DNA from: Paracidovorax avenae ATCC 19860
GTDB taxonomy: Bacteria; Pseudomonadota; Gammaproteobacteria; Burkholderiales; Burkholderiaceae_C
Length of the DNA: 64,000 nt
Direction: 5' to 3'
Assembly (NCBI RefSeq): GCF_000176855.2
Contig: NC_015138.1
Span: forward strand, 3,844,001-3,908,000
This document shows positions 641-53,438 of the stretch, piece by piece (the stretch's first letter is position 1; every line of letters begins with the position of its first letter). The notes under the pieces were generated by a model, which did not search any database, was not told where the DNA came from, and saw nothing but the letters and a program-made list of their open reading frames with translations. The translations under genes were made by a program, and so were the position numbers.

Positions 641-1345
641 TCAGATCGCGACCAGTTGCCGGATGCCCCGCGCCTGCATCTCGCTGCCGGGCCCGCGCGC
701 GATCACTTCGCCCCGCTCCATCACGAGGTACTCGTCGGCCAGCTCCTCGGCGAAGTCGTAGTACTGCTCGCACAGCAGCACGGACACCGGATGGCCGTCC
801 AGCCCCTCGTCCGCGAGGCGCCGGATCACCCGGCCGATGTCCTTGATGATGCTGGGCTGGATGCCTTCGGTCGGTTCGTCCAGGATCAGCAGCCGCGGGC
901 TGGGCGCGAGCGCCCGCGCGATCGCCAGTTGCTGCTGCTGCCCGCCCGACAGGTCCCCGCCGCGCCGGCCCAGCATCTGCCGCAGCACCGGGAACAGCGT
1001 GTAGAGATGCTCCGGCACGGGCGTGGAGCCGCTCTTGTAGGCCAGGCCCATGCGCAGGTTCTCTTCCACCGTCAGCCGGCCGAAGATCTCGCGGCCCTGC
1101 GGCACGAAGCCGATGCCGGCGCGGGCGCGCTCGTAGGGCGTGCGGCCCTGGATCGGCTGGCCCTCCCAGGTGATGGTTCCGCTGCGGATGGGCACCAGGC
1201 CCATGAGGCTCTTGAGCAGCGTGGTCTTGCCGACACCGTTGCGGCCGAGGAGGACCGTGACCTTGCCGGGGGCGGCGTCGAGGCTCACGTCGCGGAGGAT
1301 GTGGGAGCCGCCGTAGTACTGGTGGAGGTTGTGGACGGTGAGCAT
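641..1345 (-). CDS. urtE: Urea ABC transporter ATP-binding protein UrtE
   Basis: 234 aa, the normal size for UrtE. It is the second ATPase of the Urt urea importer and works at the inner face of the membrane with UrtD and the permeases UrtB and UrtC. Visible motifs are Walker A GRNGVGKTT near residue 35, the signature LSGGQQQQLAIARAL, and Walker B RLLILDEPTEGIQPSII; the GIQPSII stretch is typical of LivF/UrtE-type subunits. It ends the urtABCDE gene order, although 760 bases of repeat-rich spacer separate it from urtD. Expression is therefore either by read-through across that palindrome or from a local promoter. Confidence 0.93.
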   Translation of the reverse strand: MLTVHNLHQYYGGSHILRDVSLDAAPGKVTVLLGRNGVGKTTLLKSLMGLVPIRSGTITWEGQPIQGRTPYERARAGIGFVPQGREIFGRLTVEENLRMGLAYKSGSTPVPEHLYTLFPVLRQMLGRRGGDLSGGQQQQLAIARALAPSPRLLILDEPTEGIQPSIIKDIGRVIRRLADEGLDGHPVSVLLCEQYYDFAEELADEYLVMERGEVIARGPGSEMQARGIRQLVAI

Positions 1346-1396
1346 GTTTTAGGTTCTTTTTAAGGGCGGGGGCCGGGTCTCGCCCCGGCGGGCGAG

Positions 1397-2044
1397 GTAC
1401 TTTTCTTTGCTTCGCCAAAGAAAAGTACCCAAAAGAAAGGCGACCCTGCTGTCTGCGACCCCGTTCGCCCGCAGGGCGAACGGGGCAACCTGGGGTGCTC
1501 GGGGGTGGGGTGTGCCGTGGAACTCGCTGCGCGCACTCCGTGCGCTCCGCTCGGACAACCACGGCAAGTCAGTTCACGATGCGGGCGTGTCCTGCGGCAC
1601 GCCCGCCACCCCACCCCCTGCGCGCCCCAGGCGCATCCAGAAGGGGTGATACGGGCCTTCGCGTTGCTCGGCCTCCAAGCCATCGCTGCGCTCGGCAAAA
1701 GCACATGCGCTCTGCTCCCCAAAATACGTGCGCGGTGCGCAGCACTCGCGCACCCCAGGCCGAGCGAAGCAATGGCCCGTATGCTGCACCCCGCCCTCGT
1801 GGCTGCGCCGAGGAGCGCAGGAGGCAAGGCGCGCAGGCGTGCCGAAGGACACGCCTGCCTCGTGATCTGACTGGCTGCGGTTGTCCGAGCGGAGCGCGCC
1901 AGCGCGCAGCGAGTTCCGCAGCCGCGCCTTGCCTCCGAGCACCGCAGGCTGCCCCCTTCGCCCCTCCGGGGCGAAGGGGGACGCAGACACCAGGGCTCGC
2001 CTTTTCTTTGCCTACTTTCTTTTGGCGAAGCAAAAGAAAGTAGG
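1397..2044. repeat. Nested inverted-repeat element between urtD and urtE
   Basis: This stretch holds no credible gene. It is a large imperfect palindrome made of hairpins. The left end is a perfect 13-bp stem, GTACTTTTCTTTG with loop CTTCGC (1397-1428). The right end is a perfect 14-bp stem, CCTACTTTCTTTTG with loop GCGAAG (2011-2044), and the two loops are complementary. Inside lie CCCCGTTCGCCC/GCA loop (1459-1485, 12 bp) and CCCCCTTCGCCCC/TCC loop (1952-1980, 13 bp). Further in, the segment around 1510-1600 reappears inverted around 1840-1925, and the segment around 1645-1675 reappears inverted around 1762-1797. Long open frames on both strands here are by-products of GC bias and symmetry. 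Confidence 0.85.
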
Positions 2045-2105
2045 TGCGCCGCCGGGCGCACATCCCGGCCCCGAAAAACAAACGCCCAGCAACAACGAAA
2101 AGCCA

Positions 2106-2987
2106 TCACCGCCCCAAATACACCTCGATCACCCGCTCATCCCCCTGCACCTCGTCCAGCGTCCCCTCCGCCAGCACGGCCCCGTCGCACAGCACCGTCA
2201 CTTTCTCGGAGATCGCCCGGATGAACGACATATCGTGCTCCACCACCATCAGCGAATGCCGGCCCTTGAGCGAGAGGAACAGCTCCGCCGTGCGCGCCGT
2301 CTCTTCGTCGGTCATGCCTGCCACCGGTTCGTCGAGCAGCAGCAGCTTGGGGTCCTGCATGAGCAGCATGCCGATCTCCAGCCACTGTTTCTGCCCATGG
2401 CTCAGCTCGGCCGCGCGGCGAGCGGGCTGGTGCGCGAGGTGGATGGTGTGCAGCACCTCGGCGAGCCGGTCCTTCTGCGCCGAGTCGAGGCGGAAGAACA
2501 TGGAAGACGCGACGCCTTTGTGCGTCTTGAGGGCCAGCTCCAGGTTCTCGAACACCGTGAGCTGCTCGAACACCGTGGGTTTCTGGAACTTGCGGCCGAT
2601 GCCCAGTTGCGCGATGCCGGGCTCGTTGTGGCGCAGCAGGTCGATGGTGGAGCCGAAGTACACCGTGCCGCGGTCGGGCCGCGTCTTGCCGGTGATGATG
2701 TCCATCATCGTCGTCTTGCCCGCGCCGTTGGGGCCGATGATGCAGCGCAGCTCGCCGGGGGCGATGTCGAGGTTCAGGCCGTTGATGGCCTTGAAGCCGT
2801 CGAAGGCCACGTGCACGTCTTCCAGATAGAGGATGCGGCCGTGGGTCACGTCCACCTCGCCGGGCACGGCCACGCGCGAGAAGCCCGCGGCGCGGCCGCC
2901 GGATTCGGTGCCGTGGCCCGCTGCGGGTGCCGCGGAGCCGGCAGCGCCAGCGCGGCGCGCGCCTTCGTCCATGAGATCGGGGGTCAT
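2106..2987 (-). CDS. urtD: Urea ABC transporter ATP-binding protein UrtD
   Basis: 293 aa from the ATG at 2987, whose ATGA overlaps the urtC stop and suggests translational coupling. About 45 extra Ala/Gly-rich residues precede the ATPase core, longer than the usual 250-aa family size. Core motifs: Walker A GPNGAGKTT, signature LSHGQKQWLEIGMLL, Walker B LLLLDEPVAGMTDEE, and the H-loop VVEHDMSF. The AGMTDEET wording is characteristic of LivG/UrtD subunits. The gene couples ATP hydrolysis to urea import with UrtE. The frame continues open upstream into urtC sequence, so a longer start is formally possible but would overlap urtC heavily. Confidence 0.93.
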   Translation of the reverse strand: MTPDLMDEGARRAGAAGSAAPAAGHGTESGGRAAGFSRVAVPGEVDVTHGRILYLEDVHVAFDGFKAINGLNLDIAPGELRCIIGPNGAGKTTMMDIITGKTRPDRGTVYFGSTIDLLRHNEPGIAQLGIGRKFQKPTVFEQLTVFENLELALKTHKGVASSMFFRLDSAQKDRLAEVLHTIHLAHQPARRAAELSHGQKQWLEIGMLLMQDPKLLLLDEPVAGMTDEETARTAELFLSLKGRHSLMVVEHDMSFIRAISEKVTVLCDGAVLAEGTLDEVQGDERVIEVYLGR

Positions 2988-4141
2988 CGCGCGGCGCCTC
3001 CTTCTTCCTTGCGCAGGGCCTTGGCGATGCGGCCGCGCCATCCGCCCGGCGAGCGCAGCAGCCCCGCCACGCCCTGCGGCAGGAACAGCGTGACGGCGAT
3101 GAACAGCGCGCCCAGGAAATACAGCCAGAACTCCGGCGCCGTCACCGTCAGCCAGCTCTTCGCGCCATTGACGATGAAGGCCCCCGCGATCGGTCCGGCC
3201 AGCGTCGCGCGCCCGCCCACGGCCGCCCAGACGGCGATCTCGATGGAGTTGGCGGCGCTCATCTCGCCGGGGTTGATGATGCCCACCTGCGGCACGTAGA
3301 GCGCGCCGGCCACGCCGCACATCATGGCGCTGATGGTCCAGATGGCGAGCTTGTAGGGCAGCGGCGAGTAGCCTGAGAACATCACCCGGGTCTCCGCGTC
3401 GCGGATCGCCTGCAGCACCCGGCCGAACTTGGAGCCCACCAGCCAGCGGCCCAGGAGGAAGAAGCCGAGCAGCGCCAGCCCCGTGAGCACGAACAGCAGC
3501 ATGCGCATGTTCTGCGTGGCGATGGGCTGTCCCAGGATGCGCTTGAAGTCGGTGAAGCCGTTGTTGCCGCCGAAGCCCGTCTCGTTGCGGAAGAAGAGCA
3601 GCATGGCCGCGTACGTCATGGCCTGCGTGATGATCGAGAAATACACGCCCTTGATGCGCGAGCGGAAGGCGAAGTAGCCGAACACGAACGCCACCAGCCC
3701 CGGCACGGCCACGACCAGGACCAGCGTGGCGACGAAGCTGTCCGACAGCGCCCAGTGCCAGGGCAGGTCCTTCCAGTCCAGGAACACCATGAAATCGGGC
3801 AGGTCGCTCTTGTAGTTGCCGTCGCGGCCGATCTGGCGCATCAGATACATGCCCATCACGTAGCCGCCCAGCGCGAAAAAGAGCCCGTGGCCCAGGCTCA
3901 GGATGCCCGTGTAGCCCCAGATCAGGTCCATGGCCAGCGCACAGATGGCATAGCACATGATCTTGCCCAGCAGCGCCACGGCGTAGTCGGAGAGATGGAA
4001 GGCGCTGCCGGCCGGCACGAGCAGGTTCAGCGCCGGCGCCACCGCGCAGACCGCGATCAGCGCCACGATGAAGCCCGTCCACCCACCGCGCGTAAGCAGC
4101 GGTGCTGGTGCAGGCAATTGGATGGGTTTTGGAATGGTCAT
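2984..4141 (-). CDS. urtC: Urea ABC transporter permease UrtC
   Basis: 385 aa from ATG 4141 (MTIPKP); an in-frame earlier start at 4162 would only add seven unlikely residues. It is an inner-membrane permease of the LivM type with about ten hydrophobic segments. The motifs ALAMDLIWGYTGILSLGHGLFFALGGY and FRSRIKGVYFSIITQAMTYA are diagnostic of UrtC. It pairs with UrtB to form the channel. The stop overlaps the urtD start by four bases, while a 169-base spacer with a hairpin repeat separates it from urtB. Confidence 0.94.
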   Translation of the reverse strand: MTIPKPIQLPAPAPLLTRGGWTGFIVALIAVCAVAPALNLLVPAGSAFHLSDYAVALLGKIMCYAICALAMDLIWGYTGILSLGHGLFFALGGYVMGMYLMRQIGRDGNYKSDLPDFMVFLDWKDLPWHWALSDSFVATLVLVVAVPGLVAFVFGYFAFRSRIKGVYFSIITQAMTYAAMLLFFRNETGFGGNNGFTDFKRILGQPIATQNMRMLLFVLTGLALLGFFLLGRWLVGSKFGRVLQAIRDAETRVMFSGYSPLPYKLAIWTISAMMCGVAGALYVPQVGIINPGEMSAANSIEIAVWAAVGGRATLAGPIAGAFIVNGAKSWLTVTAPEFWLYFLGALFIAVTLFLPQGVAGLLRSPGGWRGRIAKALRKEEGGAAR

Positions 4142-4188
4142 ATTTTTCAGCGTTCGGCACAACGAGCGGCCGCAACGACCGCCACGGT

Positions 4189-4303
4189 CCAGGCCAGCAG
4201 CCGCCGCGCAAGGGCCGCCCCGCCGCGCCGGCGGCGTCCCCCCTCCCGCATGGCGCAGCCATGCGAGAGAGGGGGGAAGGAGCGAAGCGACACAGGGGGG
4301 CGT
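4189..4303 (-). repeat. Intra-operon hairpin repeat, copy A (urtB-urtC spacer)
   Basis: A GC-rich element just after the urtB stop. It shares with the element at 5972-6086 the blocks CCAGGCCAGCAG, CGCCGCG, the run of G's around GGGGGGAAG, and CAGGGGGG. Its core is a perfect hairpin GCATGGC-GCA-GCCATGC (4248-4264). The second copy has the same position and GCA loop but a different stem sequence. The element lies wholly in transcribed spacer and carries no open reading frame of note. Confidence 0.75.
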
Positions 4304-4310
4304 CCCATAG

Positions 4311-5891
4311 TTAGTCCGCAGTGCGGCCCTTGACCGCGAAGATGCCCTGCGGCCGCTTCTGGATGAAGACGATGATGAGCACCAGCACGGCGATCTTGGC
4401 CAGCACGGCCCCCGTCCAGCTTTCGAGGAACTTGTTCAGCACGCCCAGGCCCAGCGCCGCGTAGACGGTGCCGGCCAGCTGGCCCACGCCGCCCAGCACC
4501 ACCACCATGAACGAGTCCACGATGTAGCCCTGCCCCAGGTCCGGCCCCACGTTGCCGACCTGGCTCAGGGCGCAGCCCGCCAGCCCCGCGATGCCGGAGC
4601 CCAGCGCGAAGGCATAGGTATCGACGCGCGCGGTGTTCACGCCCATGCACGAGGCGATGGGCCGGTTCTGCGTCACGCCGCGCACGAACAGCCCCAGCCG
4701 CGTGCGGCCGATGAGGAAGGCCACGCCGCCCAGCACCGCGAACGCGAACGCCACGATCACCAGGCGGTTCCACGGCAGTTGCAGGTTCTCCAGCACCTGC
4801 ACGCCACCGCTCATCCAGGCGGGGTTCTCGACGCCCACGTTCTGCGCACCGAAGAGGCTGCGCACCAATTGCTGCAGCACCAGGCTGATGCCCCAGGTGG
4901 CCAGCAGGGTCTCCAGTGGCCGGCCGTAGAGGAAGCGGATCACGCCGCGCTCCAGCACCGCACCCATCAGCGCCGACGCGAGGAACGCCACCGGCACGGC
5001 CGCGACCAGGTACCAGTCGAATGCGCCGGGCAGGTATTTCTGGAACAGGCCCTGCACCACGTAGGTGGCATAGGCGCCGATCATCATCAGCTCGCCGTGC
5101 GCCATGTTGATAACGCCCATCAGCCCGTAGGTGATGGCCAGGCCCAGCGCGACCAGCAGCAGGATCGATCCCAGGCTGAGGCCCGAGAACAACGCGCCCA
5201 GGCGCTCGCCCCACTGCAGCCGCGCTTCCACGGCCTTCAGCCCGGAATCGAGGGCCGCGCGCACCTTCGGATCCTGCTCGTTGCGCAACTGCTCCAGCAG
5301 CACCGTGCGCGTGGCCGGGTTGCCACTGCCAGCCAGGGCCTGCGCCGCCAGCTGGCGCTGCGCCGGGTCGCTGGCCGAGAGCTGGATGCGCGCGCGGATC
5401 GCCTCGAGCCGCGCCTTGAGCCCCGGCTCGCGCTCGGCGGCCAGGGCCTTGTCGATCAGCGGCAGCCGCGCCTCGTCGCTCTCGTCCTTGAGCGCATCGA
5501 TCGCAGCGCGGCGCTGCGCCACATCCGGCGACATGAGCTGCAGCGAGGCCAGCGCGGTGTCGAACTCTCCGCGCATGCGGTTGTTGTTGACGATGTCCTC
5601 CGCGTCGTCCGGCACGCTCACCGGCGCACCGGTGACCGGATCGGCACCCTTGCCGTCCTTCACCACGATGGCCCGGCCGCCCGCGATCTTGACCGCATCG
5701 TCGGCCATCGCCCGGATGAAAGCCACCGTGGCCTCATCGGGCGTGGCAACGGCCTGCTGCAGCGCCGCGATCCGCTCGTCGGTATCGCCCGCGGCCATCG
5801 CCCGCGCCGCATCCGCCGTGAGCGCTTGCGCCTGCATCGCCGCGCACAGCAGCAGGCAGGCGATCAGGCGATGGAAAAAGGTGGTGGACAT
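4311..5891 (-). CDS. urtB: Urea ABC transporter permease UrtB
   Basis: 526 aa from ATG 5891 (MSTTFFHRL), with a cleavable-looking signal segment ending near AMQAQA. The first 230 residues form a soluble, helical, periplasmic domain with repeated Ala/Leu/Asp helices, typical of the long proteobacterial UrtB. The LivH-like permease follows with GLSLGSILLLVALGLAITYGLMGVINMAHGELMMIGAYATYVVQ. With UrtC it forms the urea channel. Hairpin repeats flank it on both sides within the operon. Confidence 0.94.
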   Translation of the reverse strand: MSTTFFHRLIACLLLCAAMQAQALTADAARAMAAGDTDERIAALQQAVATPDEATVAFIRAMADDAVKIAGGRAIVVKDGKGADPVTGAPVSVPDDAEDIVNNNRMRGEFDTALASLQLMSPDVAQRRAAIDALKDESDEARLPLIDKALAAEREPGLKARLEAIRARIQLSASDPAQRQLAAQALAGSGNPATRTVLLEQLRNEQDPKVRAALDSGLKAVEARLQWGERLGALFSGLSLGSILLLVALGLAITYGLMGVINMAHGELMMIGAYATYVVQGLFQKYLPGAFDWYLVAAVPVAFLASALMGAVLERGVIRFLYGRPLETLLATWGISLVLQQLVRSLFGAQNVGVENPAWMSGGVQVLENLQLPWNRLVIVAFAFAVLGGVAFLIGRTRLGLFVRGVTQNRPIASCMGVNTARVDTYAFALGSGIAGLAGCALSQVGNVGPDLGQGYIVDSFMVVVLGGVGQLAGTVYAALGLGVLNKFLESWTGAVLAKIAVLVLIIVFIQKRPQGIFAVKGRTAD

Positions 5892-6087: not shown

Positions 6088-7350
6088 TCACTTCTTCTCG
6101 GGCTCGTCCTTCTTCTTGTCGTTGCCCTCGATATACGGACTCCACGGCTTGGCCTTGACCGGGCCGGGCGTCTTCCACACCACGTTGAACTGGCCGTCGG
6201 CCTTGATCTCGCCGATGAACACGCTCTTGTGCAGGTGGTGGTTCTTCTCGTCCATCTTGCTGACGATGCCGCTGGGCGCCTGGAAGGTCTGGCCCGCCAT
6301 GGCGGCGATCACCTTGTCCACGTCGGTGCTCTTGGCCTTTTCCACGGCCTGCGCCCACATGTGCACGCCGATCCAGGTGGCTTCCATCGGGTCGTTGGTC
6401 AGCGGCTTGTCCTTGTGGCCGGGGATGTTGTTCTTCTTCGCGTAGTCGCTCCACTGCTTGATGAAGGCCGTGTTGGTCGGGTTCTTGATCGACATGAAGT
6501 AGTTCCATGCCGCCAGGTGGCCGACCAGGGGCTTGGTGTCCACGCCGCGCAGTTCCTCTTCGCCCACGCTGAAGGCGACGACCGGCACGTCCTTGGCCTT
6601 GAGGCCCGCGTTGCCCAGCTCTTTGTAGAAGGGCACGTTGGAGTCGCCGTTGATGGTGGAGACCACCGCCGTCTTGCCGCCCTGGCTGAACTTCTTGATG
6701 TCGGCCACGATGGTCTGGTAGTCGCTGTGGCCGAAGGGGGTGTACTTCTCGTCGATGTCGGAATCCTTCACGCCCTTGGATTTGAGGTAGGCGCGCAGGA
6801 TCTTGTTGGTGGTGCGGGGATAGACGTAGTCCGTGCCCAGCAGCACCCAGCGCTTGGCACCGCCGCCGTCCTTGCTCATGAGGTAGTCCACCGCGGGAAT
6901 GGCCTGCTGGTTGGGCGCGGCGCCGGTATAGAACACGTTCTTGGACAGTTCCTCGCCCTCGTACTGCACCGGGTAGAACAGCAGGCCGTTCATTTCCTCG
7001 ACCACCGGCAGCACGGACTTGCGGCTCACGCTGGTCCAGCAGCCGAAGATCACCGAGACCTTGTCCTGGCCCAGCAGCTGCTTGGTCTTCTCGGCAAACA
7101 GCGGCCAGTTGGAGGCCGGGTCCACCACCACGGGCTCGAGCTTCTTGCCCAGCACGCCGCCCTTGGCGTTGATGTCCTCGATGGCCATCAGCACCGTGTC
7201 TTTCAGCACCGTCTCGGAAATGGCCATCGTGCCCGAGAGGCTGTGCAGCACGCCGATCTTGATGGTGTCGGCAGCATGGGCGGGCAGCGCGGAGAGGCCG
7301 GCCAGAGCGGCGGCGGCGCACAGCGCCTGGAGGGTGAAGCGACGTTGCAT
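6088..7350 (-). CDS. urtA: Urea ABC transporter substrate-binding protein UrtA
   Basis: 420 aa from ATG 7350 (MQRRFTLQAL). A signal peptide ends at ALPAHA, and the mature protein starts ADTIKIGVLHSLSGTMAISE, the hallmark of UrtA. The text ASNWPLFAEKTKQLL and FGCWTSVSRKSVLPVVEE is also family-typical. The protein binds urea in the periplasm and delivers it to UrtBC. The long upstream extension of the open frame lacks a credible start and runs through the promoter region. It is the first gene of urtABCDE and is divergent from dctA. Confidence 0.95.
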   Translation of the reverse strand: MQRRFTLQALCAAAALAGLSALPAHAADTIKIGVLHSLSGTMAISETVLKDTVLMAIEDINAKGGVLGKKLEPVVVDPASNWPLFAEKTKQLLGQDKVSVIFGCWTSVSRKSVLPVVEEMNGLLFYPVQYEGEELSKNVFYTGAAPNQQAIPAVDYLMSKDGGGAKRWVLLGTDYVYPRTTNKILRAYLKSKGVKDSDIDEKYTPFGHSDYQTIVADIKKFSQGGKTAVVSTINGDSNVPFYKELGNAGLKAKDVPVVAFSVGEEELRGVDTKPLVGHLAAWNYFMSIKNPTNTAFIKQWSDYAKKNNIPGHKDKPLTNDPMEATWIGVHMWAQAVEKAKSTDVDKVIAAMAGQTFQAPSGIVSKMDEKNHHLHKSVFIGEIKADGQFNVVWKTPGPVKAKPWSPYIEGNDKKKDEPEKK

Positions 7351-7686
7351 GGTGTGGGCTCCGGAAAGGAAGGGGAAGGAGGAGGTCATCGGGAAATCGC
7401 TGGAACCGATTCTGCGGAGCCCGCCCCGTCCGTGAAATACGCCAACGGGCGTATGCCCTTCCCGCCTGCACCGTCGTGCGCCGCCACATGGCGGCGGTGT
7501 GCGCACGCCCCGTGCCGGCACGGCATGTGGGTATTCCCTCCGGTGTTTCCCACATGTTGGAATCAACGATGTGGTTTCCCACAATGTCCTGCGCGCGACA
7601 CGGCCTTACAGTGCGTCACCCGCACGACGGCAGCCTGTGGACAGGCGCCCGGTGCCCGCTCTTTTTAGTTGACGCAAGAGGCCTGC
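7351..7686. promoter_or_regulatory. Divergent urtA/dctA control region with inverted repeats
   Basis: No gene is seen in these 336 bases. An 8-bp perfect inverted repeat CATGTGGG...CCCACATG sits at 7524-7531 and 7549-7556. Close to it is TGTGGTTTCCCACA (7570-7583), so a GTGGGAAAC unit occurs twice in direct orientation on the minus strand. On the minus strand, GGCACG-N4-GTGC (7516 down to 7503) keeps the GG-N10-GC spacing of a sigma-54 promoter for urtA, with TTGC degraded to GTGC. For dctA, AAGAGG at 7676-7681 is a good ribosome-binding site before ATG 7687. The sigma-54 call is tentative. Confidence 0.4.
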
Positions 7687-39901: not shown

Positions 39902-40987
39902 CTACCCTTCGAATTGCGGGTGTGTCTGCCGGATGCGCGCCATGGCGATGCCCGCGGCGGCGGTGCGGGTTTCCACGCCCAGTTTCACATACACGCGCTC
40001 CAGGTGCTTCTTCACCGTGGCGGGGCTCGATCCCAGGATGTCGCCGATGTCGCGGTTGGTCTTGCCCTTGAGCAGCCAGTAGAGCACCTCGGCCTCGCGT
40101 GCCGTGAGCCGGAAGCCCAGCGCCAGCGCCTCGATCACCGCCGCGTCGGACACCTCGCGCATCACGATCAGCCAGTCGCCGCCGCCCTCGCTGTCGCCGG
40201 TCTGCTGGTGCAGGCTGAACGACAGGCGCCGCGCGCCGCGCTCCACCACCAGGCGCGGCGGCTCGATCTGCTGCGCCGCGAATGCCGGCACCTGCGGCAG
40301 CTGGGCCCGCAGCCATTCGGCCACGGGCAACGGCACGGCCACCGGATCGGCAGCGGCCTCCTCCGCGCCCTCCCCGCCCTGCGCGCCTTCCGTGCTGAAA
40401 TATTCGCGCAGCAGCGTGCGCGCCAGCGCCGTCTGCCACATCAGCCGCCCGTCGCTCGCGCGCACGGTGATGCTGGCGTAGCCGAAGGCATCCAGCGCAT
40501 TGCGCGCCTGGCCCGCCTGGCGCATGTCCTGCCGGGCCCGCCGCGCGCCCTGCAGGTGGACATGCATGCGCGCCAGCACCTCGCGCGGCTTGATGGGCTT
40601 GGTCACGTAATCCACGCCGCCGGCGGCCAGGGCCGCCTCCAGGTGCTCGGTCTCGGTGAGGCCGGTCATGAAGATGATGGGAATGTGCGCGGTGGCCGGC
40701 TGGGCTTTCAGGCGGCGCGCGACCTCGAAGCCATCCATGCCGGGCATCATGGCGTCGAGCAGCACCACGTCGGGCATGGCCTGGGCGGCGCGGGCCAATG
40801 CGGTCTCGCCGCTGGTGGCCACCAGCACCGTGTAGCCGGATTCGTCCAGCGCATCGTGCAGCACGGCCAGGTTGTCGGGCACGTCGTCCACGACCAGCAC
40901 CAGGCCGGCGCTGTCGCTGTCCATCAGCGGCGCGGCGCGGCCGGCGGCCGGGGCATGGGGGGCGAAAGGCGAAGGCAGGTCGGTCAT
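39902..40987 (-). CDS. LuxR-type response regulator
   Basis: 361 aa from ATG 40987. Residues 27-145 form a receiver (LVVDDVPDNLAVLHDALDESGY, phospho-acceptor Asp78 in VVLLDAMMPGMDGF, Lys in VTKPIKP). A middle region of about 140 residues (DAFGYASITVRASDGRLMWQTALARTLLREYF) resembles a PAS-like input domain. The LuxR HTH (LTAREAEVLYWLLKGKTNRDIGDILGSSPATVKKHLERVYVKL) ends the protein. It starts five bases after the stop of the permease-kinase and is its evident partner. Confidence 0.9.
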   Translation of the reverse strand: MTDLPSPFAPHAPAAGRAAPLMDSDSAGLVLVVDDVPDNLAVLHDALDESGYTVLVATSGETALARAAQAMPDVVLLDAMMPGMDGFEVARRLKAQPATAHIPIIFMTGLTETEHLEAALAAGGVDYVTKPIKPREVLARMHVHLQGARRARQDMRQAGQARNALDAFGYASITVRASDGRLMWQTALARTLLREYFSTEGAQGGEGAEEAAADPVAVPLPVAEWLRAQLPQVPAFAAQQIEPPRLVVERGARRLSFSLHQQTGDSEGGGDWLIVMREVSDAAVIEALALGFRLTAREAEVLYWLLKGKTNRDIGDILGSSPATVKKHLERVYVKLGVETRTAAAGIAMARIRQTHPQFEG

Positions 40988-40992
40988 CGGGA

Positions 40993-43900
40993 TCAGGAGG
41001 ATGCCATGAGGCGGGCCAGCGCCTCGAACTGGAACTGCCGCGCCAACGCGCGTGCGCCGGCCACCCAGCCGGCGCATTCGGGCTGCGCAGCCTCGATCTC
41101 CGCCAGCTGGGCCATCACGCCCCGGTAGTAGCCCAGCTCCACGGCCTCGGCCAGCGTCGCGAGCCGCGCGGCATCGGGCAGGGCCGCGCCGGGGCCGGCG
41201 GCCGGGGGCGGCGCAGCGGGGGGCGCGGCCTTTTCTTCCAGCCACTGCAGGGCCAGGCGCCGCTCCAGCCAGTCCAGCAACTCGGTGTGGCGCACGGGCT
41301 TGACGATGAAATCCTCGGGCTTGATGCCCACGTCGTTCTCCAGCCCCTTGTCGAAGGCATTGGCCGAGACCACGGCCACGTGCGCCTGCGTGTGGCCGGC
41401 CGCACGCAGGCGGCGGATGGTCTCCCAGCCGTCGATGCCGGGCATGGCCAGGTCCATGAAGACCACGTCGGGCCGGTAGCCGGCGGCCAGCAGGTCCAGC
41501 GCGTCGTGCCCGCTGGCGGCGGTGCGCAGCTCGAAGCCCAGCGGCGCCAGCAGCTGCACCAGCAGTTCGCGGTCGGGCTCTTCGTTGTCCACCACCAGCA
41601 GCCGGCGGCGCGGGCCGGCATAGCCGCGCCGTGCAGGCCGCGGGCCGGCGGCACGCTGCTCGGCCGCGCCCAGGGCGCCGGGGTGCACTTCGGGCAGGAA
41701 GAGCCGGATGCGGAACAGCGCGCCGGCACCGGGGGTGCTGGTCACGGTCATCTCGCCGCCCATCAGCTCGGTCAGCATCTTGGCGATGGTCAGCCCCAGC
41801 CCTGCGCCGGGCGCCGCGCCCTGGCTGCTGGCCGCACCGCGCTCGAAGGGCTCGAAGATGCTGGCGCGCTCGGCCTCGGTCAGGCCCGGGCCGCTGTCCT
41901 CGATCTCGATCAGGGCCAGTTCGCGCGCATGCCGCACGCCCAGGCGCACATGCCCCGCGGCGGTGAACTTGATGGCGTTGCCGATCAGGTTGATGAGGAT
42001 CTGCCGCACGCGCTTGTCGTCGCCGCGCACCACTTCGGGCAGCACGCCCTGCGGATCGAAGCGGAACGCCAGCCCCTTGGCGCGGGCCTGGGGCTCGAAC
42101 ATCTCGACCATCTCGTGCAGGCAGTCGGCGAAGCGCATGGGCCGTACCTGCAGCGTGAGCTTGCCGCTCTCGATGCGGGCGATGTCCAGCGTGCCCTCGA
42201 TCAGCGTCAGCAGGTGCTCGCCGCCGCGCCGGATCACGCCCACGGCCTGCCGGCGGTGCGGCGGCACCGAGGCGTCCTCGCCCATCAACTGCGCGTAGCC
42301 CAGGATGCTGTTGAGCGGCGTGCGCAGCTCATGGCTGATGGCGCTGATGTAGCGGCTCTTGGCCTGGTTGGCCTGGTCGGCCAGGCGCCGGGCCTGCTCG
42401 GCCTCCTCGCGCGCCTCCTCGGCCACGCCGCGCGCCTGTTCGGCGGTGCGACGGGCTTCCTGCAGCGCCTGGTCGGTCTGCCGGTGCAGCGCGATCTCGC
42501 GCTGCAGCAGGTGGGTCTGCCGGTTCGACTCCTCCTGCGCCACCTTGCGGCTCTTGTGGGCCAGCACCAGCCACCAGGCCACGATCCCCGAGATGACCAG
42601 CAGCGCCAGGTAGGCCTTGAGCAGCCCCGAGCGCAGCGGCGCCGCGCCGGTGCCCGGCACGCCCAGGACCTGCGTCTCCTGGTGGTAGAAAAGCCCGAAC
42701 ACCGCCGCCAGCAGCGGCGCGATCACCAGCATCAGCAGCAGGAAGTGCCCCAGCCCGGAATCCAGCAGCCGCCATGCGCTGCGCGGCAGCAGCCAGCGCA
42801 GCGCCCCGGCCCACTGCACCGCCAGGTGCGCGTGGGGCTTGCACATGTCGCCGCAGCGCGCATCCAGCGTGCAGCACAGCGAGCAGATGTGGCCACGGTA
42901 GGCGGGGCAGTGCGCCATGTCGGGCGCCTCGTATTCGCGCTCGCAGACCACGCAGCGCAGCATGGCGGGCAGCGCGGCCGTGGCTGAAGCAGCGGCAGGG
43001 GCGGCTCCACCGCCGCTGCAGCCTTCGCAGCCCCCCGTGCCGCAGGCCCGCGGCGCCGCCGTGCGGGCCAGGTAGTAGCGCCCGCCCGTGGCCCAGGCGA
43101 TGGCGGGCGCCGCGACGAAGGCCGTCACCATCGCGATCACCGCCGAGAAGGCCTGTGCGGTCGGCCCGAACAGCCCCAGGTGCGCCACCACCGACAGCAG
43201 CGAGGCCAGCGCCATCGCGCCCACGCCCACCGGGTTGACGTCGTACAGGTGCGCGCGCTTGAACTCGATGCCCGGCGGCGACAGCCCCAGCGGCTTGTTC
43301 ACCACCAGGTCGGCCACCACGGCCATCATCCAGGCGATGGCGATGTTGGAATACAGCCCCAGCACCTGCCCCAGCGCGGTGAACACGTTCATCTCCATCA
43401 GCATGAAGGCGATGAGCGTGTTGAACACCACCCACACCACGCGCCCCGGGTGGCTGTGCGTGAGCCGCGAGAAGAAATTGCTCCACGCGAGCGAGCCCGC
43501 ATAGGCGTTGGTCACGTTGATCTTGATCTGCGACACCACCACGAAAATCGCCGTGGCCGCCACGGCCCAGCGGTAATCCGCGAACACGTAGCCGTAGGCC
43601 GCCAGATACATCTGGTTGGGGTCCACGGCCCGCTCGGGGGGCACGCTCAGGGTGATCGCCAGGTAGGCCAGCAGCGCGCCGCCCAGCATCTTGAACACGC
43701 CCAGCACCACCCAGCCCGGCCCGCCGGCCAGCACCCCGGCCCACCACCGCCACCGGTTCGCGCGCGTGCGCGCCGGCATGAAGCGCAGGTAGTCGGCCTG
43801 CTCCCCCATCTGGGTGATGAGGGCGATGCCCACCGTGAGCGCCGCCCCAAAAAGGTGCAGATCGAACGCCGCCGAGCCGCCACGATCCCCGGAATAGTGC

Positions 43901-44583
43901 GCGATGCCCGCGAATGCACCAGGATCGCGCGCCAGCACGTAGCCGAACGGCACCAGCAGCATCACCAGCCAGACCGGCTGCGTCCACACCTGCAGCCGGC
44001 TGATGGCCGACACCCCGTGCGTCACCAGCGGAATCACCACCAGCGCGCAGAGCACGTAGCCCCAGGCGGGCGGAATGTCCAGCGCCAGCTCCAGCGCATA
44101 GGCCATCACGGCGGCCTCCAGCGCGAAGAAGACGAAGGTGAAGCTCGCGTAGATCAGCGAGGTGATGGTCGAGCCGATGTAGCCGAAGCCCGCCCCGCGC
44201 GTGAGCAGGTCCATGTCCACCCCGTAGCGCGCCGCACAGGCGCTGATGGGCATGCCGGCCAGGAAGATGATGAGCCCCGTCGCCAGGATGGCCCAGAAGG
44301 CGTTGGCGAAGCCGTACTGCACCAGCAGTGTGGCGCCCACCGCCTCCAGGATCAGGAACGAGGCCGCGCCGAAAGCCGTGTTGGCCACCCGCCAGGCGGA
44401 CCACTTGCGAAATCGCTGCGGCGTGAAGCGCAGCGCATAGTCCTCCAGCGTCTCGCTGCCCACCCAGCTGTTGTAGTCGCGGCGCACCTTGACGATGCGC
44501 TGCGGCGCCTCGCCTTCTGCGGCGTCATGCGGTGGCAGGGAAGTGGAAACGGGGGCGGATGGCACGCCCCGCAGGTGCAGCAT
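40993..44583 (-). CDS. NCS1 permease-hybrid histidine kinase fusion
   Basis: 1196 aa. Residues about 35-515 form an NCS1 (purine/allantoin/cytosine-type) permease with about 12 helices: DYALRFTPQRFRKWSAWRVANTAFGAASFLILEAVGA, and DPNQMYLAAYGYVFADYRWAV. A cysteine cluster follows at 544-581 (CVVC, HCPAY, ICSLCC, CGDMC), likely zinc-binding. Then two helices, a coiled coil (about 695-740), HisKA with His751 (AISHELRTPLNS), HATPase (NLIGNAIKFTAAG, DSGPG, GAGLGLTIAKML), and a receiver with Asp1044 (VVFMDLAMPG). The transporter part probably senses a nucleobase-like ligand during binding or transport. The partner regulator is directly downstream. Confidence 0.88.
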   Translation of the reverse strand: MLHLRGVPSAPVSTSLPPHDAAEGEAPQRIVKVRRDYNSWVGSETLEDYALRFTPQRFRKWSAWRVANTAFGAASFLILEAVGATLLVQYGFANAFWAILATGLIIFLAGMPISACAARYGVDMDLLTRGAGFGYIGSTITSLIYASFTFVFFALEAAVMAYALELALDIPPAWGYVLCALVVIPLVTHGVSAISRLQVWTQPVWLVMLLVPFGYVLARDPGAFAGIAHYSGDRGGSAAFDLHLFGAALTVGIALITQMGEQADYLRFMPARTRANRWRWWAGVLAGGPGWVVLGVFKMLGGALLAYLAITLSVPPERAVDPNQMYLAAYGYVFADYRWAVAATAIFVVVSQIKINVTNAYAGSLAWSNFFSRLTHSHPGRVVWVVFNTLIAFMLMEMNVFTALGQVLGLYSNIAIAWMMAVVADLVVNKPLGLSPPGIEFKRAHLYDVNPVGVGAMALASLLSVVAHLGLFGPTAQAFSAVIAMVTAFVAAPAIAWATGGRYYLARTAAPRACGTGGCEGCSGGGAAPAAASATAALPAMLRCVVCEREYEAPDMAHCPAYRGHICSLCCTLDARCGDMCKPHAHLAVQWAGALRWLLPRSAWRLLDSGLGHFLLLMLVIAPLLAAVFGLFYHQETQVLGVPGTGAAPLRSGLLKAYLALLVISGIVAWWLVLAHKSRKVAQEESNRQTHLLQREIALHRQTDQALQEARRTAEQARGVAEEAREEAEQARRLADQANQAKSRYISAISHELRTPLNSILGYAQLMGEDASVPPHRRQAVGVIRRGGEHLLTLIEGTLDIARIESGKLTLQVRPMRFADCLHEMVEMFEPQARAKGLAFRFDPQGVLPEVVRGDDKRVRQILINLIGNAIKFTAAGHVRLGVRHARELALIEIEDSGPGLTEAERASIFEPFERGAASSQGAAPGAGLGLTIAKMLTELMGGEMTVTSTPGAGALFRIRLFLPEVHPGALGAAEQRAAGPRPARRGYAGPRRRLLVVDNEEPDRELLVQLLAPLGFELRTAASGHDALDLLAAGYRPDVVFMDLAMPGIDGWETIRRLRAAGHTQAHVAVVSANAFDKGLENDVGIKPEDFIVKPVRHTELLDWLERRLALQWLEEKAAPPAAPPPAAGPGAALPDAARLATLAEAVELGYYRGVMAQLAEIEAAQPECAGWVAGARALARQFQFEALARLMASS

Positions 44584-44620: not shown

Positions 44621-45955
44621 TCAGCGCGCAGGGGGCATGCGGCCGGCGTAGGCCTTGTCGGTCAGGCTGCGCAGGAAGGCCACGAGGTCGTCGATCTCCG
44701 CGTCGGACAGCGCCGCCGCGGTGCCGGCACGCCGGTTCATCGGCGGCGAATTGACGTTGACATTGCCGCGGCATGCCTGCGGCACGTCGTCGAAGGGCCG
44801 GCCGCCGGCGTACCAGTGGGCGGGGTCGGTAGAGCGCGTGTTGTAGAACGCCACCGCGTCGCGCAGGTCGCCGAACACCGCGTTGTGCATGAAACGCTGG
44901 CGCACCGCCACGTTGCGCAGCCCCGGCGTGCGCAGGTAGGCGCACCACTGCCCCGGCTCCGGCCAGCCCAGGCGCCGCGCCGTGGCATCCAGCCCGGTAT
45001 CGAAATGGCGCGGATCGCGGTTGTCCGCCAGCCGCCGGTTGCGCGGCACGGCGATCGCGTCGTACCCGAAATCGGTGAACAGCGACCGCTCGGACCGCGA
45101 CGCCGTCTCCGCCATGGTGTGGCAGGAGGCGCAGTTGCCCTTGTCCGGGTTGCGGAACAGCGCCAGCCCGCGCTGCTCGGCCGGCGACAACGTGCCCTGG
45201 CCGCGCAGGTAGTCGTCGAAGCGCGAACTGAACGGCGCCATGGCGTCGCTCTGCAGGAAGGCCTGCAATGCGGCCCCCAGGGCGCGCAGCAGCGCCTCGG
45301 GGTCGCGCTGCACCGCGGCGCCGAAGCGCGGCGCCAGCTCCGCCGCCAAACCGCTGCGCTGCGCCGAGCGCAGCAATTGCCCCGGGGTGCCGTTGTTCAT
45401 CTCGCGCGGGTCCAGCAAGGGGCCGCGGATCTGCTCGGCCAGCGTGTCGGCCCGCCCGTCGGCGAACAGGCCGCCGAAGGGCGAGGCGAAGGGCGCATCG
45501 TCGTCCTGGTAGAAATGGCGGCGCGGCACGTAGCGCACGTAGAGCAGCGAGGGCGCCGTGCGCGCGCCGAAGTGCCCGGGCCGGCTGCCTTCGGAGGTGC
45601 CCGGCCCGGCCAGCGCACGGGGCGTGGCCAGGCTGGGCCCGAAGGCCTGCCCCGGGTCGTGGCAGGCCGCGCACGACATGCCGCGCGGCCGCGACAGCCG
45701 CGGGTCGTTGAACAGCCTCTCGCCCAGGTGCACCAGTTCCGGATCGGGAGCAAACACGGCCCGGGTCGGGTCCACCCGCGAGGCCACCTGGGGCGTGCGC
45801 CCCACCCAGCCCACCACCGCCTGGGCCGGCACGCCCGCCAGCAGCACGACCTGCGTCTCGGGCACACCAGCCGCACCGGGCGCAGCGGCAGCCGCCGCCA
45901 GGGGCAGCCACGCCAGCGCGACGGCCGCCAGCCGGCTCCGCCAGCCTGCCGTCAC
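44621..45955 (-). CDS. Di-heme cytochrome c peroxidase / MauG-like protein
   Basis: 444 aa from GTG 45955; its GTGA overlaps the stop of the metallophosphatase gene. Signal peptide ([17 protein letters not shown]). Two c-type heme motifs, CAACH and CASCH, and [25 protein letters not shown] are typical of the CcpA/MauG superfamily. The C-terminal [19 protein letters not shown] is the usual closing helix. It is periplasmic and either reduces peroxide or oxidises a protein or cofactor. Coupling to the phosphatase gene hints at a shared role that I cannot name. Confidence 0.88.
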
Positions 45956-47427
45956 GGCGCCAGGAAGCCGGTCTTGTCGCACGCCAGCGTGCGGCCGGAC
46001 TGCTGGCAGGTGGCCAGCAGCTTGCCGGTGGTCGTGTAGGCCTTGAAGGTCCAGCCGGTGGCGGGCGACGCGCGGCGCTCCATCATCGCGAAGCCGAAGC
46101 TCGCGTGGTGCGTGATGCGGTCGATGGTGGTGCCCGGCGCGGGCGAAGCGCTGGCCGGCAGCGGATCGGACAGCGCCACGTCGAGGTTGTCGCCTGCGTT
46201 GCCGGTCACCAGCGTCGCCGGATGGCCCGAGGCGAAGTTGATGGCCTGGAAGTCGTGCACGTGGCCGTGGAGCGCGACGTGCACGCCCGGCGGATAGTAG
46301 GCCTGCTGGTAGAGGCCCACCATGGCCGACTGCAGCGCCGCATTGCCCGGTGCGGGCGTGCTGCCGGCCACCGGCGCGAAGGCCAGGATCGGGTGGTGGT
46401 TGGTGAAGATGTTCGTCGCCACGCCGGCCTTGGCCGCCAGCGCGGCCACGCTCTGGAACTGCTTCTGGTAGATGCCGAACTGCAGGTCCGTGCTCTTGAG
46501 CGCCGTCTTGCCCGTCTTGGCCGAATCGAACACGATCACCTGCGTATCCCCGCCCAGGGCCACCGCATAGGGCTCGGAATAGTTGCCCACGTTGTCGTTG
46601 GCCGGCAGGTTGCAGGAGCTCTGCTCGCTGTAGGCGCGCGGGTCCAGGAAGCGGAACCAGCCCTGCCCGGCGCGCGCGCACTCCTCATGGTTGCCGCGCG
46701 CCATGATCCAGGGCGCGCCGGCCAGCAGCGGCGCCGCGGGCTTGAAGAAGTCCGCCTGCCAGGTGTCCCAGCCATAGCCCCAGGGGCTGCCCTTGCAGCC
46801 CGCCACATCGCCCGGGCAGGCGTTTTCGCGGTAGTGGTAGTCGCCGATGTGCAGCACCAGGTCCGGCGCCATGGCGGCGGCCGTCGCGGCGACGGTCGCG
46901 AAGGGCCACGCCACGGGATCGCTGCAGGGCTGCCAGGCGTTGTCCGCCTTCTTGAGGCGGCAGCCCGTGTCGGCGATCAGCAGCACGCGCTGCGGCTGCG
47001 CCTTCGGCAGCGGCAGGGTGCGGTCGGCCACGGTGGCCTGGCGGGCCGAATCGGGCAGCACCGTCTCGCAGACCGACACGGGAAACTCCGAAGGCTTCGA
47101 GTCGGACGGATCGCTCGCGGTGGTCCGCTGCGCCACCGTGCCGGCGGCCACGCGCAGCGCCATGCGGCTGGGCTGGTTGTCCACCACGATCCGGGGGCAG
47201 ACGCTGGCGTCCGCGGCCGAGCCGGCGGGCAGCGTGTAGCTGGTGATCACCCGGGCAGTGGCATGGCTGCCTTCGCCCACCACCACCCAGGCGGCCTGGA
47301 TGTTGGCGGGTGCGCTCGCGGCATCGGCCGTGATGCCGGAGCCGCCGCCGTCGCAGCCGGACAGGGTGAGCGCGCCGCCGATGGCGAGCGCCGCTCCGAA
47401 GGGAGAAATCCAGCGGGATGCCTGCAT
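45952..47427 (-). CDS. Metallophosphoesterase lipoprotein
   Basis: 491 aa from ATG 47427 ([25 protein letters not shown]). The lipobox LSGC is followed by a Gly/Ala-rich tether. The calcineurin-like core shows the metal-ligand motifs [29 protein letters not shown] and ALHGHVHDF in order. It is an extracytoplasmic phosphatase or nuclease of unknown substrate. Three TGTNAC repeats upstream resemble a Pho box, consistent with phosphate scavenging. The downstream di-heme gene overlaps its stop. Confidence 0.88.
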
Positions 47428-47580: not shown

Positions 47581-47883
47581 ATGGAACTGACCCCCCGGGA
47601 AAAAGACAAGCTGCTTCTCTTCACCGCCGCGCTGCTGGCCGAACGCCGCAAGGCGCGCGGCCTCAAGCTCAACTACCCGGAGGCGGTAGCACTGATCTCC
47701 GCGGCCGTGCTGGAAGGCGCCCGCGACGGCAAGACCGTGGCCCAGCTCATGAGCGAGGGCCGCGAAGTCCTCACGCGCGACGACGTGATGGACGGCGTGC
47801 CGGAAATGATCTCGGACATCCAGGTCGAAGCCACCTTCCCGGACGGCACCAAGCTCGTCACCGTCCACCAGCCCATCGCCTGA
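47581..47883 (+). CDS. ureA: Urease gamma subunit UreA
   Basis: 100 aa, the exact family length ([41 protein letters not shown]...[12 protein letters not shown]). It is the smallest structural subunit of the nickel enzyme urease, which hydrolyses urea to ammonia and carbamate in the cytoplasm. The long frame upstream is antisense to the phosphatase gene and is not part of the protein. It is first in the operon ureA-J-B-C-GNAT-E-F-G. No ureD precedes it. Confidence 0.97.
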
Positions 47884-47936
47884 AGGCGACCGCGGACTGC
47901 CCCGCCCCCCTTCTCTCTCTGCCCACGGAGCCTCCC

Positions 47937-48530
47937 ATGCGCATTGCCCGTTCCCTCCTGCCCGCACTGCTTGCCGCCGCCGCGCTGCCGGCGCTGGCCC
48001 ATACCGGTGCGGATGCCGGCCACCACCACGGCTTCACCGCCGGGTTCCTGCACCCGCTCACCGGCATGGACCACCTGGCCGCGATGGTGGCCGTGGGCCT
48101 GTGGAGCGCCCTGGCCGCGCGCAGCCGCCGCGAACTGCTGGCAGCGCCCCTGGGCTTCGCCGGCATGCTGCTGGCGGGCGCGCTCGCGGGCCTCGCGGGC
48201 CTGTCGCTGCCCGCGGTGGAGCCCATGATCGCCGCCTCGCTGCTGGTGCTGGGCCTGCTGGTGGCCACGCAGCGCCGCCTGCCCGCGCCCGCCGCCGCGG
48301 CGCTGGTCGGCGTCTTCGCCGTGTTCCACGGCATCGCCCACGGCCACGAACTGGCCGGCGACGGTGCCGCCCTGCCCACGCTGGCCGGCATGCTCGCCGC
48401 CACCGTGGCCCTGCATGCCGGCGGCATCGGCCTGGGCGTGGCCCTGCGCGGCGCCAACCGCTGGCTGCCGCGTGCGGCCGGCGCCGCCGTCGGCCTCTTC
48501 GGCCTCGCCCTGCTGGGCGGCCTGGCCTGA
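47937..48530 (+). CDS. ureJ: HupE/UreJ family nickel permease-like protein
   Basis: 197 aa with a signal-like start (MRIARSLLPALLAAAALPALAHTGADAGHHHGFTAGFLHPLTGMDHLAAMVAVGLW). The HPxxGxDH motif is the HupE/UreJ signature and likely binds nickel; a second conserved block is VFHGIAHGHEL. Six hydrophobic segments suggest an inner-membrane channel or secondary permease that supplies nickel for urease maturation. It sits between ureA and ureB, as in many beta-proteobacteria. Confidence 0.93.
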   Translation: MRIARSLLPALLAAAALPALAHTGADAGHHHGFTAGFLHPLTGMDHLAAMVAVGLWSALAARSRRELLAAPLGFAGMLLAGALAGLAGLSLPAVEPMIAASLLVLGLLVATQRRLPAPAAAALVGVFAVFHGIAHGHELAGDGAALPTLAGMLAATVALHAGGIGLGVALRGANRWLPRAAGAAVGLFGLALLGGLA

Positions 48531-48551
48531 ACACGAACCGAGGAGCGCACC

Positions 48552-48902
48552 ATGGTCCCGGGCGAACTGCTGGTCGATGACGGCGAGCACCCACTCAACC
48601 CCTGCCGGCGCACCGTCACCCTGGTGGTGCGCAACAGCGCCGACCGGCCCATCCAGGTCGGCTCGCACTACCACTTCGCCGAAACCAACGGCGCGCTCGA
48701 TTTCGACCGCGCGGCCGCGCGCGGCATGCGGCTGAACATCACCTCGGGCACCGCGGTGCGCTTCGAGCCCGGCCAGCAGCGCACCGTCGAACTGGTGGAC
48801 TACGCCGGCAGCCGCACCGTGTACGGCTTCCGCGGCGACACCCAGGGCCCGCTGGACGTGCCCCCCGCGGAAGCCGCACCCGGCCTGCCGCAGCAGCCCT
48901 GA
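48552..48902 (+). CDS. ureB: Urease beta subunit UreB
   Basis: 116 aa. It opens [53 protein letters not shown], the standard UreB text, with [25 protein letters not shown]. The usual length is near 101-105 aa; the extra C-terminal tail ([13 protein letters not shown]) is proline-rich and not conserved. It is a structural subunit of the (UreABC)3 enzyme. It starts 21 bases after ureJ. Confidence 0.96.
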
Positions 48903-48959
48903 TCCGCCCCGCCCCTTCACGCACCACGCCCACAGCCACCGGAAAGGCAAGACCACACC

Positions 48960-50678
<1,719 letters not shown>

Positions 50679-51993: not shown

Positions 51994-52749
51994 ATGGCGC
52001 CTGCACCCGATTCCGCCCCTTCCGGTCCTGCAGCGCCCGGTCCGGCATCGATGCCACAAGCCCTGCCCGCGGCCAGCCTGCTGCAGCTCATCTGGCTCGC
52101 TTCGCCCGCCCTGCCCGTGGGCGGTTTCTCGTACTCCGAAGGGCTGGAGATCGCCGTCGAATGCGCGGGCGTCACCACCGAAGCCACGGCCGCCGCCTGG
52201 CTGCAGGAACAGCTGATGCTCACCCAGGCCCGCGGCGACCTCGCCGTCGTCCACCAGGCCCTCACCGCCTGGCGCGCGGGCGACGCGGAGCGCGTGCGCG
52301 CCCTCAACGACTGGGTGCTGCACACCCGCGAGACCAGCGAGTTGCGCCTGCAGACCGAGCAGATGGGCCGCTCCCTCGCCGACTGGCTGCGCAACCAGCA
52401 CACGGGTGATCCGGAGGCCCTGGCCGACGTCGCGCGCCTCGCCGCCCTGCCACCCACCTATCCCGTCGCCTTCGCCCTGGCCGCCGCGCGCACCCAGGCA
52501 CGCTCCGAAGACGTGCTGCTCGCCTGCGCCTTCGGCTGGGCCGAGAACATGGTCCAGGCCGCCATCAAGGCCGTGCCCCTGGGCCAGAGCGCCGGCCAGC
52601 GCATCCTCGCGCGGCTCGCCGCCGCCATCCCCGGCGCCGTGGCCCACGCCATGCAACTGGGCGACGCGGAGCGCCAGGCCTTCTCCCCCATGCTGGCCGT
52701 GCTCTCGGCCCGGCATGAAACGCAGTATTCCCGCCTTTTCCGCTCATGA
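51994..52749 (+). CDS. ureF: Urease accessory protein UreF
   Basis: 251 aa from ATG 51994, seven bases after ureE; an internal ATG at 52051 ([33 protein letters not shown]) could be the true start, since the first 19 residues are Pro/Ala-rich. The core is all-helical, with [19 protein letters not shown] and [46 protein letters not shown]. UreF acts in the UreDFG complex that activates urease. Its stop overlaps the ureG start (ATGA). Confidence 0.94.
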
Positions 52750-53438
52750 CCGCCATGACCATGAACATGAACGCCACCACCAACACCTCGCCCCTGCACC
52801 ACGTCCCGAACCGCACCAAGCCCCTGCCCCCGCTGCGCGTGGGCATCGGCGGCCCCGTCGGCTCCGGCAAGACCACCATCCTGGAGATGCTCTGCAAGGC
52901 CATGCGCGACCAATACGACCTCGTCGCCATCACCAACGACATCTACACCAAGGAAGACCAGCGCCTGCTCACCGTCAGCGGCGCCCTGCCCGCCGAACGC
53001 ATCATGGGCGTGGAAACCGGCGGCTGCCCCCACACCGCCATCCGCGAGGACTGCTCCATCAACCTCGAGGCCATCGACCGCATGCTGGCCCAGTACCCCG
53101 ATGCCGACATCGTCTTCGTCGAAAGCGGCGGCGACAACCTGGCCGCCACCTTCAGCCCCGAGCTGAGCGACCTCACCATCTACGTGATCGACGTCGCCGC
53201 CGGCGAGAAGATCCCCCGCAAGGGCGGCCCCGGCATCACCAAGAGCGATCTCTTCGTCATCAACAAGACCGACCTCGCACCCCACGTGGGTGCGAACCTG
53301 GACGTGATGGAGGCCGACACGCGCCGCATGCGGGGTAGCAAACCCTTCGTGATGACCAACCTGAAGACGCAGCAGGGGCTGGACGGAGTGATCGAGTTCA
53401 TCGAGAAGAAGGGGTTGCTGCAGGCGGGGCGGGCTTGA
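52746..53438 (+). CDS. ureG: Urease accessory GTPase UreG
   Basis: 230 aa; the start overlaps ureF by four bases. P-loop [12 protein letters not shown], the metal motif [17 protein letters not shown] (Cys-Pro-His), [14 protein letters not shown], and the guanine motif [16 protein letters not shown] are all present. About 20 extra N-terminal residues ([15 protein letters not shown]) exceed the usual UreG. It uses GTP to insert nickel into urease with UreE, UreF and UreD. It is the last gene of the operon. Confidence 0.97.

Follow-up and report, generated by a model that had tools for sequence, protein, structure and literature searches.

An NCS1-like sensor kinase with an eight-cysteine module is linked to urea and amide genes and is a candidate regulator of urtABCDE

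The window, a stretch of 64,000 nucleotides from the 5.48 Mb genome of Paracidovorax avenae ATCC 19860, encodes a hybrid sensor kinase of 1196 residues (40993..44583, minus strand), which shows 98% identity to a Paracidovorax avenae protein. The first-pass annotation of this DNA had described a permease-like domain joined to a cysteine cluster and a histidine kinase, and our analysis confirmed this arrangement. The protein begins with an NCS1-like (LeuT-fold) domain, residues about 48-504 (43072..44442), in which 12 transmembrane helices were read from an AlphaFold2 model. This is followed by an eight-cysteine (8-Cys) module, residues 544-581 (42841..42954), with the pattern C-x2-C-x11-C-x7-C-x2-C-C-x5-C-x3-C, and by two hydrophobic helices identified from hydropathy, residues 606-635 and 650-678 (42550..42768). 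C-terminal to the carrier domain Pfam recognizes a HisKA domain (741-807; 42163..42363) with the presumed phospho-acceptor His751 in SHELRTP, a HATPase_c domain (854-963; 41695..42024) and a receiver domain (996-1105; 41269..41598) with the presumed phospho-acceptor Asp1044. The domains and the His and Asp sites of a HisKA-type hybrid histidine kinase are thus all present, and a helical tail completes the protein. A response regulator gene (39902..40987) begins 5 nt past the kinase stop on the same strand and encodes a receiver, with Asp78 as presumed phospho-acceptor, and a LuxR-type DNA-binding domain. The proposal that this is the cognate regulator is supported by a homolog within 500 nt of the sensor in 56 of 58 relatives described below.

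Urease genes lie on the plus strand, divergent from the kinase (ureA 47581-47883, ureB 48552-48902 and ureC 48960-50678, together 47581..50678), and are followed by ureG (52746..53438, plus strand; TIGR00101). A UreE-like protein with a very His-rich C-terminus, named by eye, is encoded at 51285-51986. In the window the head-to-head pair of kinase and ureA is split by genes for a di-haem peroxidase and a metallophosphatase (44621-47427), and homologs of these two genes were found in one of the 151 loci searched (L059). On the minus strand we found the predicted target operon, consisting of urtA (6088..7389; TIGR03407 above cut-off) and urtB, urtC and urtE (641..5891; TIGR03409, TIGR03410 and TIGR03408), with urtD assigned between them from position only. 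The palindrome ATACGCCAACGGGCGTAT (7437..7454) is located 48-65 nt upstream of the start called for urtA; it is the only TACG-N8-CGTA in the window and is the site that we propose for the regulator. A GGDEF/EAL gene next door had also been suggested as an output of the system. We found some match to it in 16 of 151 loci (L034-L129, L160-L214) and an orthologue-level match in only one (L202, from the same genus), and we therefore dropped it as a conserved output.

We asked whether the N-terminal domain is indeed NCS1. Pfam PF02133 (NCS1) did not match the N-terminal 531 residues at E<=10, nor was it found there in a whole-genome search. A direct search of the PDB with the N-terminal sequence returned nothing at E<=1, and a search with its profile returned only RING fingers at E of about 8. 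However, comparison by hhalign with eight aligned NCS1-type proteins gave a probability of 97.6% (E 2.8e-12) over 424 columns, and one protein (L049) is intermediate, matching PF02133 as well as the N-terminal family of the sensor. Using Foldseek and VIA-align we found that the best PDB matches of the AlphaFold2 model are CodB and Mhp1, and in the structure comparison NCS1 structures outscore every SLC5-type chain listed. No SLC5 Pfam match was found in the kinase. Because of the profile homology, the intermediate protein and the CodB and Mhp1 matches of the model, the domain is best described, from profiles and predicted structure, as a distant NCS1 subfamily. The earlier assignment to NCS1 is therefore upheld, though PF02133 misses the domain.

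To place the sensor residues on the known structures we used profile alignments to Mhp1 and CodB, which share about 16% identity with it. CodB stacks the base between Trp108 and Phe204, two aromatics described as conserved throughout NCS1, and binds sodium through Thr278 and Thr279 among others (PMC9379551). We found that the TM6 position of CodB Phe204 and Mhp1 Trp220 is Leu255 in 135 of 137 sensors, the other two having Met, and in 120/120 of the best permease-sized relatives. The TM3 position of CodB Trp108 is Phe152 in 129/137 sensors. Thr278 and Thr279 in TM8 (the Na2 site) correspond to position 353, which is mostly Leu, Ile, Val or Met, and to Lys354, which is present in all 257 proteins (137 sensors and the best 120 permease-sized relatives). 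By alignment mapping, then, neither the full pair of stacking aromatics of NCS1 nucleobase carriers nor the Na2-site hydroxyls on TM8 are found here. Gln258, Asn356 and Asn359 are invariant in the same 257 proteins, Asn359 being the position of Mhp1 Asn318; Glu156 is found in 135/137 sensors and 120/120 of the best permease-sized relatives, and Glu261, also in the pocket region, is near-invariant. As mapped, these residues fit a small polar amide ligand bound without sodium coupling. The sensor thus shares its fold and profile homology with CodB and Mhp1, including the Asn318 equivalent, but differs from them in the missing PF02133 match, in the replaced TM6 aromatic and Na2 threonine, and in the added C-terminal 8-Cys module and fused kinase.

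The permease-sized relatives are the best 120 matches listed for one kinase-less permease and are close to that query. They have no kinase, and in TM1 they carry Asp79/Gln80 where the sensors carry Leu79/Glu80, a contrast drawn against a permease sample that forms one clade. The TM1 difference may be a signature of the change from transporter to sensor. Seventeen positions in all, for example Leu79/Asp, Ala362/Ser and Ala366/Ser, separate sensors from permease-sized relatives (>90% within each group). In a tree of sensors and permeases, with the permeases sampled from one clade, the outgroup branch is very long.

All eight cysteines of the cluster are invariant in 17/17 relatives. When the cysteine module by itself was searched against 398 genomes of the phylum, we obtained 58 matches in 52 genomes, and in this set the cysteines are present by construction, since the loci were found and parsed by them. 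The fair test of conservation is therefore a second set of 80 loci, found through N-terminal words only, in which 79 carry the eight cysteines; the sole exception (L096) stops at a contig end. The cysteines are thus conserved in orthologues, a point on which the first-pass annotation had said that its reading could fail. The 38-residue Cys span is kept in 135 of 137 parsed sensors and is slightly longer in the other two, and Asp555 within the module is invariant. We considered whether the module is a general finger of other kinases and rejected this, as an NCS1-like N-terminus is present in 58/58 matches from the 398 genomes.

The linker between carrier and kinase has no Pfam match, and its position is occupied by the 8-Cys module and the TM pair. 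The module had been viewed as an element set between carrier and kinase. This view did not survive, because 119 of the best 120 permease-sized relatives carry the eight cysteines at their C-terminus and end 3-24 residues after the last Cys, although one of them (P0229) is named a partial kinase and not all need be free-standing. Judged by these sequences, the 8-Cys module is a feature of the carrier subfamily itself. Modelled alone, the module consists of strands plus a short helix; confidence is good for the first 40 residues, but the pTM is only 0.56. Its PDB matches are weak and many of them are treble-clef zinc domains (FYVE, RING, PHD, ZZ). A treble-clef-like, double-zinc fold is a reasonable guess from this model.

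The Acidihalobacter proteins annotated as "purine-cytosine permease family" have the same permease and 8-Cys domains, as do 119 of the best 120 permease-sized relatives. In three Acidihalobacter-type genomes (L038, L317, L318) a copy of the palindrome separates the kinase from a free-standing 8-Cys permease, which precedes fmdA and amiE and occupies the place that urtA has elsewhere. The free-standing form behind the same palindrome is probably an amide permease. L318 has two further palindrome copies. In a different setting, L316:8869-12121 encodes a divergent kinase-less 8-Cys permease followed directly by an amidase-signature amidase, and its surroundings include an allophanate hydrolase-like gene, an adenosine deaminase, an M20 hydrolase and a Bmp-type binding protein.

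We next examined the gene neighbourhoods of the sensor using urt genes, formamidase/aliphatic amidase genes (fmdA/amiE) and urease genes as markers. For the 58 relatives mostly about 10 kb was fetched on each side. We found urt genes in 48 loci, fmdA/amiE in 38 and urease genes in 13; these counts, like those below, were made in genomes that are related to one another and so do not represent independent events, and the neighbourhood counts cover sensor loci rather than a comparison with matched random loci. At least one urea or amide marker is present in 56/58 loci, and the other two (L167, L176) are at contig ends. Where urtA lies within 3 kb, 43 of 44 sensors are divergent from it. UrtA is present in 51/52 sensor genomes compared with 118/346 other genomes.

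The 80 loci are the named loci that best match the sequence of the window itself, and they are hence biased towards close relatives (mostly betaproteobacterial by title). A marker gene was found in 64/80 and urt genes in 30, and fmdA/amiE in 0/80. The ureA gene is present in 56 loci, always divergent, and in 49 of these it is within 400 nt of kinase codon 28. No marker gene was found in 16/80 loci; of the 54 loci with a length above 20 kb, ten (L059, L091, L092, L094, L102, L111, L115, L116, L127, L128) belong to this group. The window itself is a poor example for urtA by the measure used for this set, with urtA 33 kb away. The same genome carries a paralogous sensor (L040, at 258 kb) which adjoins genes of the UrtA type and for FmdA (formamidase). 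We propose that the window copy is the urea version and the 258 kb paralogue the amide version. In the accessible text of two papers, the second urt-like cluster of Bradyrhizobium was argued in an earlier computational study to carry amides rather than urea (PMC3098086), and a formamidase-linked urtABCDE was suggested to take up formamide (PMC13209695).

We derived TACG-N8-CGTA from the 58 relatives by counting pairs of words upstream of the kinase, where it is present in 30/57 of these loci. This count overlaps that for urtA, because kinase and urtA share a divergent promoter. Of the 84 distinct urtA genes that lie in sensor loci, 68 carry the palindrome no more than 330 nt upstream, compared with 0.4% in shuffles. 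By set, it is at 36/46 urtA genes of the 58 relatives, 28/30 of the 80 loci (whose sequences took no part in its derivation), 3/7 of the first class sample and 1/1 in the window. The 16 urtA promoters of the 84 that have no exact copy are mostly from gammaproteobacterial loci. The 57 loci contain 51 exact copies. At a distance of up to 450 nt, 42 of them are close to the start of a urtA match, 7 to that of an fmdA match and 1 to that of the kinase only; the last copy is elsewhere. In sensor-less genomes the exact palindrome was found at 0/40 urtA promoters, and with one mismatch at 3/40; these 40 were hand-picked from 118 genomes, five being from the same family or order as the window genome.

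We then looked, in genomes with a sensor, at urtA copies remote from it. Of 20 hand-picked copies, 16 are without the palindrome and four have it, namely L280-L282, from genomes with a urease-linked sensor, and the irregular copy L279. From this spread each sensor type seems to be paired with its own urt operon. In the window genome there are five TACGYN6RCGTA sites, two of them at urtA promoters: one at the urtA of the window, the other at the promoter that the paralogous kinase shares with its own urtA. UrtA-type matches number three in this genome, and the palindrome and sensor therefore explain at most two of them. Three further sites (G000:C1:1815666, 1855389, 4962453) lie between called genes, as judged with a simple gene finder, and could be more targets or chance. 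Upstream of the kinase in the 80 loci the palindrome was found in 0/78; the rate with one mismatch was 14% compared with 6.5% in shuffled sequence, and with two mismatches 41% compared with 55%. Since the palindrome is missing from this urease-side promoter, direct control of urease by the regulator is unsupported. We infer the link between regulator and palindrome from their co-occurrence.

Taken together, our data make it probable that the protein is an NCS1-fold transceptor which detects urea and/or short-chain amides (formamide, acetamide) and acts through its regulator on urtABCDE by way of TACG-N8-CGTA. Binding of the ligand to the carrier-like domain would alter whether that domain faces inward or outward. 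The 8-Cys module, cytoplasmic and probably holding two metal ions, and the TM pair would relay this change to the kinase. Phosphate would then pass from His751 to Asp78 of the LuxR-type regulator, with Asp1044 of the fused receiver serving as a relay or a brake, and the regulator would bind the palindrome and switch on urtABCDE. In sister systems its target would be fmdA or the free-standing permease.

The sensor could instead respond to a urea product or to nitrogen status. A sensor that reports ammonium or general nitrogen status rather than a substrate would agree with the release of ammonia by the linked enzymes, and also with the fmd genes of M. methylotrophus, which are induced by formamide and urea and repressed by high ammonia, with only a putative regulator named in the text available (PMC10781810). 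We consider this unlikely, as a permease-like input suggests substrate specificity and one genome holds both a urease-linked and an amide-linked version with palindromes at different urtA promoters. The sensor family could also supply the formamide/urea sensor of the M. methylotrophus type.

A second possibility is that the NCS1-like domain is a mere membrane anchor and that the 8-Cys module senses redox or a metal, such as nickel for urease. Formamidase and AmiE are not known to need nickel, and 45/58 loci have no urease gene within the fetched stretch, although one group of sensors is linked to the nickel-dependent urease and the eight cysteines are invariant. The near-invariance of Glu156, Gln258, Glu261, Asn356 and Asn359 is not expected of an anchor, and the permease-sized relatives carry the same module. 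This explanation is improbable.

A sensor for nucleobases, hydantoin or allantoin, linked to urea genes through urea from nucleobase breakdown, would agree with the family of carriers to which the NCS1 fold belongs, with the purine-cytosine permease-like label in several source records and with the adenosine deaminase and M20 hydrolase near L316, but we rejected this earlier suggestion as very improbable because urea/amide genes (the markers searched) are near 56/58 relatives, the other two being at contig ends, 38/58 are near formamidase/aliphatic amidase genes, whose substrates are not known as nucleobase breakdown products, the palindrome marks urtA and fmdA, and the TM6 aromatic of the base sandwich is Leu255, all of which point to urea or short-chain amides.

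The proposed urea/amide transceptor resembles the SLC5/STAC kinases (CbrA, CrbS, RpuS), which likewise consist of a LeuT-type carrier, a small linker domain and a histidine kinase, and several of which control uptake or use of a nutrient, according to the available parts of two papers (PMC9100948, PMC13022988). In contrast to these, the carrier here is of the NCS1 type, the place of the four-helix STAC bundle appears to be taken by the 8-Cys module and TM pair, and the linked genes and predicted ligand are urea and amides. The SLC5/STAC linker domain packs under the carrier and was proposed, in the portion of the paper available, to relay its motion (PMC13022988). By analogy we propose that the 8-Cys module may do the same. 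The carrier fold of another kinase, the ammonium sensor Ks-Amt5, is not known to be related to NCS1. Ks-Amt5 likewise joins the carrier fold for a nitrogen source to a histidine kinase, and the accessible text on it does not mention an 8-Cys module (PMC5764959). Among open-licence papers we found no dedicated urea/formamide sensor of this type. The available part of a genome paper lists a hybrid kinase and a LuxR-type regulator beside a second urtABCDE operon (PMC13296017); as far as their accessible text goes, work on GrtK, which is PilS-like (PMC12918730), and PMC9062700 have no direct bearing on the sensor.

The family is common, with at least 8000 proteins, and is often labelled purine-cytosine permease-like, and its function may therefore be misread across Proteobacteria. 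It adds to SLC5 and Amt another carrier type in which transport can be separated from signalling; the free-standing permeases provide natural controls for this, and the palindrome gives reporters a defined promoter site. More tentatively, we lean towards a broader view in which a carrier of NCS1 fold, having lost the sodium site and stacking pair, became a urea/small-amide receptor, with the permease-borne 8-Cys module as metal coupler, and serves as a portable input in a large undescribed class. The NCS1 and 8-Cys input is joined to hybrid kinases, plain kinases and PAS-kinases. At L043:8352-12020 (minus strand) it is fused to PAS-GGDEF-EAL, a c-di-GMP output with no kinase.
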